Source of the DNA: Streptomyces paludis
Lineage (GTDB): Bacteria; Actinomycetota; Actinomycetes; Streptomycetales; Streptomycetaceae
Assembly: GCF_003344965.1 (NCBI RefSeq)
Contig: NZ_CP031194.1
Location: 4,464,001 to 4,528,000, forward strand
DNA length: 64,000 bases
Direction: 5' to 3'
In this document: piece by piece, positions 27,181 through 32,037 of the stretch
Layout: each line of letters begins with the position of its first letter
Position numbering within the stretch: position 1 is the stretch's first letter
The notes under the pieces: generated by a model
The model's input: only the letters and a program-made list of their open reading frames with translations
What the model was told of the DNA's origin: nothing
Databases searched by the model: none
Translations under genes and position numbers: made by a program

Positions 27181-27966
27181 CTATGCGCGCGGGTCGTTGG
27201 ACGGGCGGTCGGGGGATGGGCGGTCGACGACGGGCAGGGACTGGGTGTCGCCGTCGTGGGACCAGCCGTCCGGGGGCCGCGCGGACGCGGACGGGTAGGG
27301 GTGCGGGTCGGGGTGCGCGTACGGGTCCGGGTGAGGGTAGGGCTCGGGCGCGTACGGCTGCTGGCGCTGCGGCGGGGACTGCGGCTGATGCTGCGGCGCC
27401 GGGCCCGGGTCGTACCCGTACGGCGACGACTGCTGCTGAGGGGCGTACTGCCAGTCCTGCGGCGGCTGTTGCGACTGCTGAGGCTGGTACGGGTGGGGCT
27501 GATACGGCTGCGGCTCCTGACGCTGTGGTGCCGGGGGCCAGGGCTGCCTGGCGCGGCTGCGTCCGCTCATCAGCAGCGCGGCGATCAGCAGCACGATCCC
27601 GCCACCGAGGGCGTACGCGACACCGATACCGAGCCCCGACCCGTCACCGTTGAGCGCGAGACTGCCCGCCGCCTGCCCCTGACGCACCATCCACAGCACG
27701 GTGAAGCCGAGAACGGCCAGCCCGGACAGCCCCACCAGCGCCCGCGAGCGCAGCGTCAGCGCGAAGAGCGTGAGCAGCGCCGCGAAGGCGAAGGGCAGGA
27801 GCAGCGAGTCGAACAGCCCGGAGCCGCGGTCGGTCAGGCCCTCGAACAGCTCCGCGATCCGGAAGTCGCGCCCCTCCCGGCCGTCGTACCAGGGGCGGAA
27901 CGGGGCGATGACGGCCGCGGCGGCGCCGATGAGCGCGAGGATCGAACCGAGGACGTTACGGACCAT
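27181..27966 (-). CDS. Membrane protein with Pro/Gln/Tyr-rich C-terminal tail
   Basis: A 261-residue protein. The first 140 residues hold four predicted transmembrane segments (LGSILALIGAAAAVIAPF, LLLPFAFAALLTLFAL, ALVGLSGLAVLGFTVLWM, YALGGGIVLLIAALLM). The remaining 120 residues are a disordered tail rich in Pro, Gln, Tyr and His with PYQPHPYQPQQ-type repeats. It lies between afsK and the AfsS genes and converges on afsK with 25 bp between stops. No known function; a link to AfsK signalling is only positional. Confidence 0.75.
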   Translation of the reverse strand: MVRNVLGSILALIGAAAAVIAPFRPWYDGREGRDFRIAELFEGLTDRGSGLFDSLLLPFAFAALLTLFALTLRSRALVGLSGLAVLGFTVLWMVRQGQAAGSLALNGDGSGLGIGVAYALGGGIVLLIAALLMSGRSRARQPWPPAPQRQEPQPYQPHPYQPQQSQQPPQDWQYAPQQQSSPYGYDPGPAPQHQPQSPPQRQQPYAPEPYPHPDPYAHPDPHPYPSASARPPDGWSHDGDTQSLPVVDRPSPDRPSNDPRA

Positions 27967-28193: not shown

Positions 28194-28379
28194 CTAGTGG
28201 TTCAAGGTGAGGTGCCAGTCGCCCCGGGGCGTGGCCGGTATGAGTGTGTCGCCGATGCTGGTGGCGTGTACGTCGCCGCTCGTGGCGTGCATGTCGCCCG
28301 CGAGGGCCGGTGACGCCGCTCCGGCTGTCGTGGCGGCCACAAGGGCGGTGGTGATCAGAATGCGCTTTGCGAGGGTCAT
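28194..28379 (-). CDS. Small exported AfsS-like repeat peptide
   Basis: A 61-residue protein with a clear signal peptide (MTLAKRILITTALVAATTAG then ASPALA) and predicted cleavage before GDMHAT. The mature part, about 34 residues, is a run of GD-x-H-like units: GDMHAT, GDVHAT, GDTLIP, GDWHLT. The same GDxHAT unit makes up AfsS encoded 150 bp upstream on the same strand. GAAAGG lies six bases before the ATG and third codon positions are GC-rich, so it looks translated. A 14-bp hairpin separates it from afsS, so it is likely expressed separately or by read-through. I know no described family: it looks like an AfsS-derived peptide sent outside the cell. Confidence 0.7.
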   Translation of the reverse strand: MTLAKRILITTALVAATTAGAASPALAGDMHATSGDVHATSIGDTLIPATPRGDWHLTLNH

Positions 28380-28456: not shown

Positions 28457-28495
28457 ACGACCGCGACGGCTCCCCCTCCGCGCCGTCGCGGTCGT
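28457..28495 (-). terminator. 14-bp hairpin between afsS and the exported repeat peptide
   Basis: A perfect inverted repeat with arms at 28457-28470 (ACGACCGCGACGGC) and 28482-28495 and an 11-base loop. It follows the afsS stop by about 30 bp and lacks a T run, as is common for streptomycete terminators. It lies upstream of the exported peptide gene and could also attenuate it. Confidence 0.7.
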
Positions 28496-28526: not shown

Positions 28527-28694
28527 TCAGGCACCGGGTTCACCGGTGGCGTGCGTGTCCCCCTGGGTGGTCGCGCCCGCGTCCGGGCTGCCGGTGGCGT
28601 GCGTGTCGCCCTGGGTGGTCGCGGCCGAGTCCGGGCTGCCGGTGGCGTGCGTGTCGCCCTGCGGCTTGAGGGTCGAGCTCTTCTTGTCCGTCAT
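28527..28694 (-). CDS. afsS: AfsS-type small repeat protein, activator of secondary metabolism
   Basis: A 55-residue protein, MTDKKSSTLKPQ followed by three copies of GDTHATG separated by SPDSAATTQ, SPDAGATTQ and a short EPGA end; the repeat period is 16 residues. AfsS proteins are small (about 63 residues in S. coelicolor), repetitive, encoded right after afsR and switched on by AfsR to raise antibiotic production. Position, size and repeats all fit. AAAGGGAG lies nine bases before the ATG. It has its own promoter region after the afsR terminator, with an AfsR/PhoP-like direct repeat at 28867-28888. Confidence 0.8.
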   Translation of the reverse strand: MTDKKSSTLKPQGDTHATGSPDSAATTQGDTHATGSPDAGATTQGDTHATGEPGA

Positions 28695-28866: not shown

Positions 28867-28888
28867 CAGCCCTAAACGAATGATGAAC
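28867..28888 (-). promoter_or_regulatory. Candidate AfsR/PhoP direct-repeat site in the afsS promoter
   Basis: On the minus strand two adjacent 11-base units read GTTCATCATTC and GTTTAGGGCTG, each starting GTTyA. SARP activators and PhoP both bind 11-bp-spaced direct repeats, and both are known to compete at the S. coelicolor afsS promoter. The site lies 20 bp past the afsR stop and 170 bp before afsS. I cannot fix the -10 element. Confidence 0.45.
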
Positions 28889-28908
28889 GCCCAGCCCAGG
28901 GGGCCCGG

Positions 28909-31900
28909 TCAGGCCGCGGCCACCGACGAGAGCAGGGCGCGCACATCCGCCGCCTCCGGTGAGCCCAACTCCTCGTACGTGGCGAGCGCCTCCCGCCAGC
29001 AGACGTGGGCGCGGCCCGTCTGGCCGATGCTGTTCAGGGCGCGTCCCAGGGTCGTCAGCACATTGGCGCGCCGCCAGTCGCCGCCGATGTCCCGGAGGAT
29101 GGTCAGCGCTGCCTCGGCGTTCGACGCCGCCCGTACCGGACGGCGGGCCAGCAGATCGACCTCGGCGAGCCGGAACAGCGACATGCCCTCCCACAGCCGG
29201 TGCCTGCTGTCTCTGAAGGTCTTCAGCGCCTCCGTCAGCCGGTCGGTCGCGTCGGTGAGATGGTCCTTCTGCGCGAGGGCCATGCCCAGCGCGTAGCGGG
29301 CGTTCGCGCCGCGGAGGGTGTTCCCCGTGCGGTCGTAGATCTCCATGCCCTGCTGGGCGAGCGCGATCGCGCTCGCCGTGCGGCCGAGGGCGAGCCGTAC
29401 GCGGGAGAGATTGCAGAGCGAGGAAGCCTCTCCCGCCTCGTTCCCGTCCGCGCGGTAATCCGCGATGGCCCGCGTCAGATGCCGCTCGCCGTCCGGGTAG
29501 CGGTTCTGGTAGAGAGCGATGATGCCGCAGTGGTTCGAGGCCCAGGCCATGGTCAGCAGGTCGCCGGAGTGGTGGGCCAGCGCCCGGGCCTGTTCCGCCT
29601 TCTCCTTCGCCCTGTCGAACCGTCCCGTGAAGTGGTGGACGTTGCTCATCGTGATCAGGGCGCGCCCCTCCAGCCAGGGATCGCCCGACGCGCCCGCCGC
29701 CGTCAGCAGTGCCGCCGCGGCCTCCTCGTACTCCTTGGAGTTGGCGCCCGACTCGCCCAAGTCCAGCGACGCCCACAGCAGATCGACCGCCCGGCGCAGC
29801 GTGCCGGGGCGGTCGGCCGCCTGGTGTGCGCAGGCCAGCACGGAGTTCGCCTCCGCGTAGAGCCAGTCCTCGCCGTCGCGCCGGTCCGTGAACGACAGGC
29901 CCGGGTAGGCGGTCGCCTCCAGCCGGTCCGGCAGCCGGTCGCCGGGCCGTTCCAGCGCGTACACGTTCGCCGTCGTCGCCAGATAGAAGTCCAGCAGCCG
30001 GGAGAGCGCGTCCTCCCGCCGGGACGCGGGCTGTTCGTCGCGTTCCGCGCACGCACGCGCGTAGAGCCGTACGAGGTCGTGGTACCGGTAGCGGCCCGGG
30101 GCGGCGGATTCGAGCAGGGAGGTGTCGACGAGCGACTCCAGCAGCTCCTCGGCCTGTCTCACCGGCAGATCGAGGAGCGCGGCCGCGGCGGCGAGCGAGA
30201 TGTCCGGGCCGTCGGCGAGGCCGAGCAGCCGGAACGCGCGGGCCTGGGACTGTTCGAGGGCGCCGTAGCCGAGTTCGAAGGTCGCCTTGACGGCGAGGTC
30301 GCCGGCCTGCAACTCGTCCAGCCTGCGCCGCTCGTCCGCGAGCTTCTCGGCGAGTACGGAGACGGTCCAGGTGCGCCGGGAGGCGATGCGGGAGGCGGCG
30401 ATACGGATCGCCAGCGGCAGGAAGCCGCACGCGGCGACGACATCGAGCGCGGCCTCGCGCTCGGAGCTGACGCGCTCGTGGCCGATGATGCGGGTGAACA
30501 GCTGGAGCGCCTCGTCCGGCGACATCACGTCCAGATCGACCAGATGTGCCCCGGCCAGGTCGACCATCCGGCCCCGGCTGGTCACCACCGCCGCGCAGCC
30601 GTCCGTACCGGGCAGCAGCGGGCGGACCTGGGCGGCGTCGCGCGCGTTGTCCAGCAGGACCAGGACGCGACGGCCGTCGAGCGTGGAGCGGTAGAGCGCG
30701 GAGCGGTCCTCCAGCGAGTCGGGGATCGCGGCCGCGCTCATGCCGAGCGCCCGCAGGAACGAGGCCAGTACGGTCTCCGGCTCGGCGGCCCGGGGCCCGG
30801 CGCCCTGGAGGTCCACGTACAACTGCCCGTCGGGGAAGTGCGCGCGGGCCGCGTGCGCGACATGGATGGCGAGGGTCGTCTTGCCGACGCCGCCGATCCC
30901 GGCGATCGCGGAGACCGCCATCACCGCCCCCTCGGGGGTGGCCAGCCGGTCGCCCAGCTCCTGTACGAAGGCGGCGCGGCCGGTGAAGTCGGGCACGGTC
31001 GCGGGCAGTTGGGCGGGCCGGAGGACGGCGGGCGAGGTGGCGGGCTCCTCGGCGGGGCCGACGAGCAATGCGTCGGCCTCCAGGATGCGCTGATGGAGTC
31101 TGGCCAGCTCGGGGCGCGGGTCGACACCGAGTTCGTCGGCGAGCAGCCGGCGGGTGTCCGCGTACACGGCGAGCGCCTCCGCCTGCCGGCCGCCGCGGTA
31201 CAGCGCGAGCATCAGCAGCTCGCGCAGCCGCTCGCGCAGCGGGTGCTCGGCGGTGAGGGCGGTCAGCTCGGAGACGGCCCCGGCATGGCAACCGGCCTCC
31301 AGGTCCATGTCAATTCGAGCCTCGGTGAGTTGCAGGCGCCATTCCTCCAGCCGGGCGCGCTGCGTCTGCGCGTACGGCCCCGGCACCGCGGCCAGCGGCT
31401 CGCCCGTCCACAGCTCCAGCGACCGGTTGAGCAGGTCCCGGGCCTGCGCGCGGTTCCCGGCGGCCCGCTCCTTGTCCGCGTGCCCGGCCAGTTCCTCGGC
31501 GACGCTCAGGTCGAGGGCCTCGGGCCCGGTCCGCAGGGCGTACCCGCCGGACTCGCTCACCAGCACGCCCGAGCTGAGCACCTTCCGCAGCCGCGAGGCG
31601 TACGTCCGTACGGCGGCCAGCGCCTGCGACGGCGGCCGGTCGCCCCAGAGCGCGTCGATCAGCTCGGGGGCGGTGGCGGTACGGCCCTCGCGCAGGAGCA
31701 GGGCGGCCAGCAGCGCGCGCTGCTGCGGCGAACCGGACGGCAGCGTCTCGGCGCCGCGCCAGGCGCGGACCGGGCCGAGCACGCTGAAGCGCAGCGCGTC
31801 GGTGCTGGGGTGCGCGGTGGCGCCGGGGCCGGCGTTCGTGTGTGCGCTTGTGCCCGCGCTCGCGTTGCCGTTCGCGTCGCCCTGCGCGGTCGCGTCGGCG

Positions 31901-32037
31901 CCCGCGTTTTTGCTCGCCCGGACGCCCGCGTCTTCGCTCGCTCCGTCGCCCGCGCGTCCGCCCTTCGTCCCTTCCGTACCCACCGGAGCCCGTCGCTCCC
32001 GCTGCTCCGGCACGCGCGGCTCGCCGTCACGTTCCAT
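28909..32037 (-). CDS. afsR: AfsR global regulator (SARP, NB-ARC ATPase, TPR)
   Basis: A 1042-residue regulator close in size to S. coelicolor AfsR (993). Residues 1-80 are a low-complexity Ala/Gly/Asn/Thr tail. Residues 82-175 are the OmpR-like winged helix (FSVLGPVRAWRGAETLPSGS, LIDALWGDRPPSQALAAVRTY), followed by the bacterial transcriptional activation domain to about 345. The NB-ARC ATPase has Walker A GIGGVGKTTLA with Lys386 and Walker B VLVLLDNARD. From about 720 on there are TPR-like repeats. AfsR is phosphorylated by AfsK and related kinases, binds the afsS promoter and recruits RNA polymerase. Co-location with AfsK, a KbpA-like protein and AfsS makes the assignment strong. Confidence 0.93.
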   Translation of the reverse strand: MERDGEPRVPEQRERRAPVGTEGTKGGRAGDGASEDAGVRASKNAGADATAQGDANGNASAGTSAHTNAGPGATAHPSTDALRFSVLGPVRAWRGAETLPSGSPQQRALLAALLLREGRTATAPELIDALWGDRPPSQALAAVRTYASRLRKVLSSGVLVSESGGYALRTGPEALDLSVAEELAGHADKERAAGNRAQARDLLNRSLELWTGEPLAAVPGPYAQTQRARLEEWRLQLTEARIDMDLEAGCHAGAVSELTALTAEHPLRERLRELLMLALYRGGRQAEALAVYADTRRLLADELGVDPRPELARLHQRILEADALLVGPAEEPATSPAVLRPAQLPATVPDFTGRAAFVQELGDRLATPEGAVMAVSAIAGIGGVGKTTLAIHVAHAARAHFPDGQLYVDLQGAGPRAAEPETVLASFLRALGMSAAAIPDSLEDRSALYRSTLDGRRVLVLLDNARDAAQVRPLLPGTDGCAAVVTSRGRMVDLAGAHLVDLDVMSPDEALQLFTRIIGHERVSSEREAALDVVAACGFLPLAIRIAASRIASRRTWTVSVLAEKLADERRRLDELQAGDLAVKATFELGYGALEQSQARAFRLLGLADGPDISLAAAAALLDLPVRQAEELLESLVDTSLLESAAPGRYRYHDLVRLYARACAERDEQPASRREDALSRLLDFYLATTANVYALERPGDRLPDRLEATAYPGLSFTDRRDGEDWLYAEANSVLACAHQAADRPGTLRRAVDLLWASLDLGESGANSKEYEEAAAALLTAAGASGDPWLEGRALITMSNVHHFTGRFDRAKEKAEQARALAHHSGDLLTMAWASNHCGIIALYQNRYPDGERHLTRAIADYRADGNEAGEASSLCNLSRVRLALGRTASAIALAQQGMEIYDRTGNTLRGANARYALGMALAQKDHLTDATDRLTEALKTFRDSRHRLWEGMSLFRLAEVDLLARRPVRAASNAEAALTILRDIGGDWRRANVLTTLGRALNSIGQTGRAHVCWREALATYEELGSPEAADVRALLSSVAAA

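Follow-up and report, generated by a model that had tools for sequence, protein, structure and literature searches.

Three kinds of described system lie closest to the locus reported here: AfsS of Streptomyces, the peptide-pheromone systems of the RRNPP family (Rap-Phr, NprR-NprX, AimR) and the STAND regulators with TPR sensors (MalT). The mode of action of AfsS (AfsR2) is given as unknown in passages of PMC2267785 and PMC10972967, and the C-terminal TPR domain of AfsR is termed a tentative sensor in a passage of PMC10936776. Passages of the 2024 AfsR structure paper state that the NOD and TPR domains inhibit AfsR in vitro and that inducer binding at the sensor remains elusive. Here we analyse a 64,000-nucleotide stretch of Streptomyces paludis contig NZ_CP031194.1 (positions 4,464,001 to 4,528,000; hereafter the window), in which afsR and afsS are followed on the minus strand by a gene that we call X and that appears to encode an exported relative of AfsS. 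On balance we favour the reading that AfsS and X carry the cognate ligand core of the AfsR TPR sensor, with X exporting it as a probable peptide signal. In the literature outside subscription journals and preprints, we found no description of an exported AfsS-like peptide or of AfsS binding the AfsR sensor, as judged from passages of PMC2267785, PMC6988585, PMC3897704, PMC10936776 and PMC10972967.

Results

The gene that a first-pass annotation of the window had placed downstream of afsS, with 61 codons and four GD-units, is real; it lies on the minus strand, at exactly the positions given there. It translates as MTLAKRILITTALVAATTAGAASPALA, then GDMHATSGDVHATSIGDTLIPATPRGDWHLTLNH, then a stop, and CGAAAGG precedes its ATG. 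The peptide runs from a basic start through a hydrophobic stretch and an A-L-A site to the four units; an export signal is expected from this composition and the A-L-A site, which supports the annotation's reading of X as an AfsS-type peptide with such a signal, although two of the four units, GDTLIP and GDWHLT, are degenerate. The other two, GDMHAT and GDVHAT, are tandem units built on the species' own core, GDTHAT in AfsS, whose three GDTHATG copies we also find. Since AfsS proteins are cytosolic and X carries an export signal, we file it as an exported AfsS relative and not as AfsS. Neither Pfam nor NCBIfam gave a match to X at E<=1, and when 5.77 billion proteins were searched with the single sequence, the only hit was X itself; a family profile retrieved 27 proteins, X included, which are called 'hypothetical' or 'Secreted protein' where the source names them. 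SCO4424, a candidate counterpart of X, is a 'Possible secreted protein' in a table of PMC3897704.

When 392 Streptomyces genomes were searched in six frames for X, 30 matches reached E<=0.01, a good part of them short exported peptides with D-x-H-x-P/T units. Pooled with those that follow afsS in 80 named AfsR loci, these peptides yielded a 23-sequence alignment in which the signal part is the best conserved portion, and its profile, run on the same genomes, found matches in 169 of the 392 at E<=1e-3, the weaker ones being mostly signal peptides. Regions were fetched for 60 of the top 65 listed profile rows (the window itself, three of genome G371 and one of G224 were omitted); among these best matches, 53 have the X-type peptide on the same strand downstream of AfsR, and seven lack AfsR upstream (L180, L182, L190, L193, L202, L204, L206). 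In the 80 named loci, some of which end early downstream, a script called X in 13 and met one broken frame, that of Streptomyces sp. L-9-10 (L039), which is interrupted past the signal part and may be a recent loss. An even draw of loci gave X in 16 of 119, the other 103 being without it. Altogether 81 X-type peptides were collected, from the window and 80 other loci: X is sporadic yet recurrent in Streptomyces, and lies in the afs position in every case counted. The pair thus recurs when afs loci are searched for exported GDxHAT-type peptides, and X is not a gene absent from all related strains. Rows L170 (a duplicate of L084), L039, L081 (unlikely open reading frames), L065 (AfsS not found) and L217 (unlikely X frame) were dropped, and L192 and L195, with a short AfsR, were excluded from the AfsR tests.

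The repeats of AfsS agree inside one protein and vary between species (DNHAP, DMHAT, NIHIT, DSHMT, DGHIP, DNGMP, DSTRP, DEQMP and others), and those of X go with them: AfsS/X types are EDSHIT/EDGHIT in L181, DGHTT/DGHTY in L194, DEQMP/DEHLP in L188 and DNPMP/DNSMP in L186, and, among loci fetched later for replication, NRHTT/NRHST in L314, NNHGT/NNHST in L319 and DHQGS/DYQGS in L324. Over the 65 loci with both genes the mean match of AfsS to its own X was 31.8, against 22.9 for shuffled pairs (standard deviation 0.69, z 13; the largest of 20,000 shuffles reached 25.8). The own partner also did better than that of the nearest relatives in 49 of 63 comparisons and worse in 13, and in 31 independent sister pairs there were 17 better, 6 worse and 8 ties. 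By core position, 1 to 5, agreement was found in 58, 31, 56, 29 and 59 of the 65 loci, the shuffled means being 39.7, 9.6, 52.6, 10.4 and 29.1; core calling was automatic and made no use of AfsR, and since position 1 was restricted to D/N/E and position 5 to T/P/S/G/Y/Q, these two classes are narrow by construction. This agreement, together with the ratio of nonsynonymous to synonymous rates in X genes (dN/dS 0.30-0.61, 11 pairs tried), speaks against a chance similarity between the two peptides. In L324 and L325, AfsS has a single DHQGS unit and X has six (L324) or fewer DYQGS-type units; the motif there lies outside D-x-H-x-T/P and the match is retained.

Concerted evolution through gene conversion between the adjacent repeats would produce such likeness with no functional matching, and repeats within each gene are indeed clearly homogenised (codon identity 0.76-0.86). 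Between afsS and X, however, codon identity at common residues is 0.69-0.71 within a genome, not above the 0.67-0.70 found between genomes. Gene conversion was rejected on this comparison as the source of the match, and we consider it highly improbable; equal codon identity within and between genomes indicates that the match has been kept by selection on the proteins and not by copying of DNA.

The AfsS core also covaries with AfsR, in loci with X and in loci without it. Across 128 loci, agreement in the AfsS core followed identity in the TPR domain (r 0.69) more closely than in the arm (0.43), NOD (0.25) or SARP (0.22), and in a joint regression the TPR domain alone retained weight. Along AfsR the partial r stays close to zero up to residue 700 or so, then takes values of 0.23-0.34 over the arm (713-802), 0.43-0.57 for windows in 803-1012 and 0.17-0.18 over the last 30 residues, those nearest afsS. 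Single sites gave sharp rules: AfsR residue 909 was Arg in 93/93 loci with D or E at core position 1 and Lys in 31 of 35 with N, and residue 989 was Arg in 83/83 loci with T or S at position 5 and other than Arg in 42 of 45 with P or G. Because these columns had been chosen by scanning, predictions were recorded and 109 new loci were then fetched, which are new samples and not independent lineages, since they share ancestry with the discovery loci. In them, Arg909 went with D/E in 93/93 and Lys909 with N in 10/16; Arg989 went with T/S in 75/75 and another residue with P/G in 34/34; and site 836, paired with core position 2, had Asp with N in 34/39, Ala with M in 8/8, Ile with V in 5/6 and Glu or Asp with S in 8/10. 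Six loci with an AfsS identical to one in the discovery set were omitted, as were L216, L254, L324, L325 and L326, where the script missed AfsS (L216 and L254 have one by eye). The X peptides follow the same rules less strictly, keeping that of position 5 with site 989 in 71/77 and that of position 1 with site 909 in 71/77. On a tree of SARP+NOD, co-changes with the core numbered 18 at site 909 (1.6 expected), 33 at 836 (14.4), 25 at 842 (10.3) and 16 at 952 (2.9), and at most 3 of 96 SARP columns and 1 of 84 NOD columns reached p<0.01. By their sequence pattern, AfsR residues 909, 836, 842, 989, 952, 954 and 910 act as if they read core positions 1, 2, 4 and 5. Core position 3, where His is lost, was associated with scattered columns that include SARP 234 and NOD 631, a clade effect.

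A model of AfsR residues 690-1042 from AlphaFold2 is a TPR solenoid (mean predicted local distance difference test score, pLDDT, 90; predicted template modelling score, pTM, 0.88). With A (groove) and B helices assigned from the TPR pattern, all eight of the strongest covarying sites fall on A helices. Neighbours of the model in Foldseek and VIA-align are LGN complexes, Rap, NprR and AimR, some of them pheromone-bound, and the MalT sensor; a shared predicted fold does not prove a shared function with peptide receptors.

The strongest alternative to ligand reading is passive linkage, in which X and afsS move with the 3' part of afsR as one recombination block and all covary with no physical recognition. 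The core and the TPR domain do have a history apart from that of SARP-NOD (the SARP+NOD tree needs about 20 changes at position 1, an arm+TPR tree 8), and arm columns are partly involved. Against pure linkage, the end of AfsR closest to afsS is weakly associated, unlike residues 803-1012; the strongest sites lie on groove helices; synonymous sites of the TPR region give 0.14 where amino acids give 0.68 (although synonymous sites are near saturation); and the signal part of X gives 0.05. We judge it unlikely. As a separate observation, the arm, TPR and AfsS core differ in history from SARP-NOD as if a sensor/ligand module had been exchanged between lineages.

In 62 of the 81 X peptides the mature chain is expected to begin with the core (cleavage placed by a simple A-x-A rule), and in 35 the core makes up precisely the five C-terminal residues (6.9 expected); this placement at both mature ends fits the release of small peptides. 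It is left unexplained if X, as a short-lived peptide, competes with AfsS at the AfsR sensor inside the cell before export, export being disposal; such competition would account for the common motif with no need of uptake, but it seems to us improbable. A third possibility is that X works only outside the cell, as a protease decoy, a surface or matrix peptide or a metal scavenger, and is AfsS-like by descent. It agrees with the export signal, with the N-terminal core and with a mature peptide that often starts X-X-His, the amino-terminal copper/nickel-binding (ATCUN) pattern, and DSTRP-type loci retain His in X (L176, L177, L179). Yet where AfsS has lost His (DNGMP, DNPMP), X is without it too (L173, L186, L191, L197), a joint loss in four loci for which we set aside His-metal binding as the common function, and origin by duplication leaves the ongoing covariation of X with AfsS and with AfsR sites unexplained. 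We consider a purely extracellular role unlikely.

The remaining features of the locus are collected in Table 1. AfsR belongs to the NCBIfam equivalog NF053617, and afsK, confirmed by NF053615, lies downstream of X on the opposite strand. Between X and afsK, at 27181-27966 on the minus strand, a gene encodes a membrane-type protein of 261 residues whose tail is rich in Q, P and Y; it has no Pfam match above cut-off, and relatives occur near afsK in L181 and L196. The afs box upstream of afsS, scanned with the repeat consensus given in a passage of PMC10972967, is the only match in the window (0.24 expected). The window scan thus found no afs box belonging to X, which may be transcribed through afsS, and a sigma-70 consensus scan around X gave no promoters. 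The hairpin between afsS and X is likely an afsS terminator or processing site, and its loop motif precedes X at 9 of 65 loci, the window included (shuffled mean 0.02). A different element, TCGAAC about 70 bases (60-90) before X, was found in 24 of 65 loci (1.8 expected; L147-L206 and named loci) and is absent from the window; in 18 loci a TA-rich hexamer follows downstream (0.05 expected), and in four the element takes the form of a palindrome, GTTCGA-N5-TCGAAC. From this pattern TCGAAC with its hexamer is a probable promoter or operator of X itself. An Rfam match to ar7 on the other strand scored 26.5 bits, below the gathering threshold of 60, and was taken as chance.

Table 1. Coordinates of X, its neighbours and the covarying AfsR codons in the window.
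Feature	Position	Strand	Remarks
X (exported AfsS-type peptide gene)	28194..28379	-	61 codons + stop; open reading frame coordinates exact
Expected mature X	28197..28298	-	units GDMHAT, GDVHAT, GDTLIP, GDWHLT; from sequence
X export signal (predicted, Sec-type)	28299..28379	-	codons 1-27; cleavage presumed after A-L-A
Hairpin between afsS and X	28457..28495	-	loop GGAGGGGGAG; fold, z only -1.5 vs shuffles
afsS	28527..28694	-	three GDTHATG repeats, no export signal
afs box upstream of afsS	28873..28889	-	two direct repeats CGTTCATCATT-CGTTTA; 0 mismatches
afsR (SARP-NOD-arm-TPR regulator)	28909..32037	-	NF053617, 1699.5 bits (cut-off 1430)
AfsR TPR sensor region	28912..29679	-	about residues 787-1042
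AfsR Arg989 codon	29071..29073	-	covaries with core position 5
AfsR Arg909 codon	29311..29313	-	covaries with core position 1
AfsR His836 codon	29530..29532	-	covaries with core position 2

Discussion

The first-pass annotation had offered a signal, a decoy or a coat peptide as roles for X. Of these the signal is the best fit, given that the motif follows the AfsR sensor domain; nothing that we found speaks for a coat peptide, and a decoy is a weaker possibility. The likely partner, to judge from sequence, is AfsR, which that annotation had missed. The core of X changes in step with both AfsS and the AfsR sensor, a sign that the two peptides may supply the missing ligand of that sensor. Sequence comparison establishes the X family and its place, the covariation of AfsS with X and the replicated covariation of AfsS with the AfsR TPR domain; physical binding, export, cleavage, uptake and the direction of the effect are what we infer.

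In the mechanism that we propose, X would be a Sec-exported pro-peptide holding copies of a pentapeptide core, D-x-H-x-(T/P), as in the AfsS repeats, and this core would be the cognate ligand of the AfsR TPR domain, whose groove residues would read positions 1, 2, 4 and 5. AfsR would activate afsS, and AfsS, in which the ligand is repeated three to six times, would feed back on the AfsR sensor inside the cell, where, given that NOD and TPR inhibit AfsR in vitro, the ligand may relieve inhibition. In a minority of lineages X would deliver the same ligand outside the cell; released peptides might be taken up by an oligopeptide permease, a step assumed by analogy with Rap-Phr, and reach AfsR as Phr reaches Rap, so that the onset of antibiotic production would depend in part on lineage-matched neighbours.

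Several observations weigh against the ligand reading. X is missing from 103 of the 119 evenly drawn loci and is therefore not essential to the AfsR-AfsS circuit. Multicopy afsS is reported to work without afsR, which would call for a further target of AfsS. The position-5 rule and the position-1 rule are each broken by 6 of the 77 X peptides (L158, L160 and L167 are examples), and Lys at 909 failed to appear in 6 of the 16 N-type replication loci. Association extends to the arm, with 29 of 98 columns for position 1 and 23 of 98 for position 2, site 758 among them. On the arm+TPR tree core changes are few (8, 34, 34 and 7), which implies that core and TPR domain have largely been inherited together; there 909, though the best position-1 site, has only 4 co-changes, and 989 does not rank with the top sites for position 5. 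In the published assays, as described in the passages at hand, AfsR was activated by ATP alone with no AfsS added.

As a broader and more tentative proposal, to which we give slightly less than even credence, AfsK-AfsR-AfsS may be a lineage-typed peptide circuit in which AfsS is an inducer or co-regulator of AfsR and exported X serves some lineages as a quorum signal. With the proposed residue code, how AfsS acts and whether an inducer binds the AfsR sensor can be tested directly on a single purified domain and short synthetic peptides. If X is a signal, a global antibiotic regulator of Streptomyces would be under the influence of a peptide pheromone, silent antibiotic clusters would be open to simple elicitation by cognate peptides, and antibiotic production would be gated between strains that share a peptide type.

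Compared with AfsS, X has the same tandem D-x-H-x-(T/P) units, locus and strand and a matched motif, but it carries an export signal, which AfsS lacks, and places its units at both mature ends. The likeness to RRNPP systems lies in a short Sec-type pro-peptide gene beside a TPR-domain regulator (here and in 80 other loci, and absent from 103 of 119), in a similar TPR fold and in lineage-specific matching of peptide and receptor. AfsR has a C-terminal peptide-binding TPR domain at the level of fold only, however, and is a SARP-STAND activator of an actinomycete, SARP-NOD-TPR in architecture, where receptors of the Rap/NprR/PlcR/PrgX/AimR type have a helix-turn-helix or phosphatase effector; the sequence families differ, the uptake of X is presumed, and the ligand would also exist here as a separate intracellular multi-repeat protein, AfsS. 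Among STAND regulators with TPR sensors, MalT senses a sugar, whereas the ligand proposed for AfsR is a peptide encoded next door.
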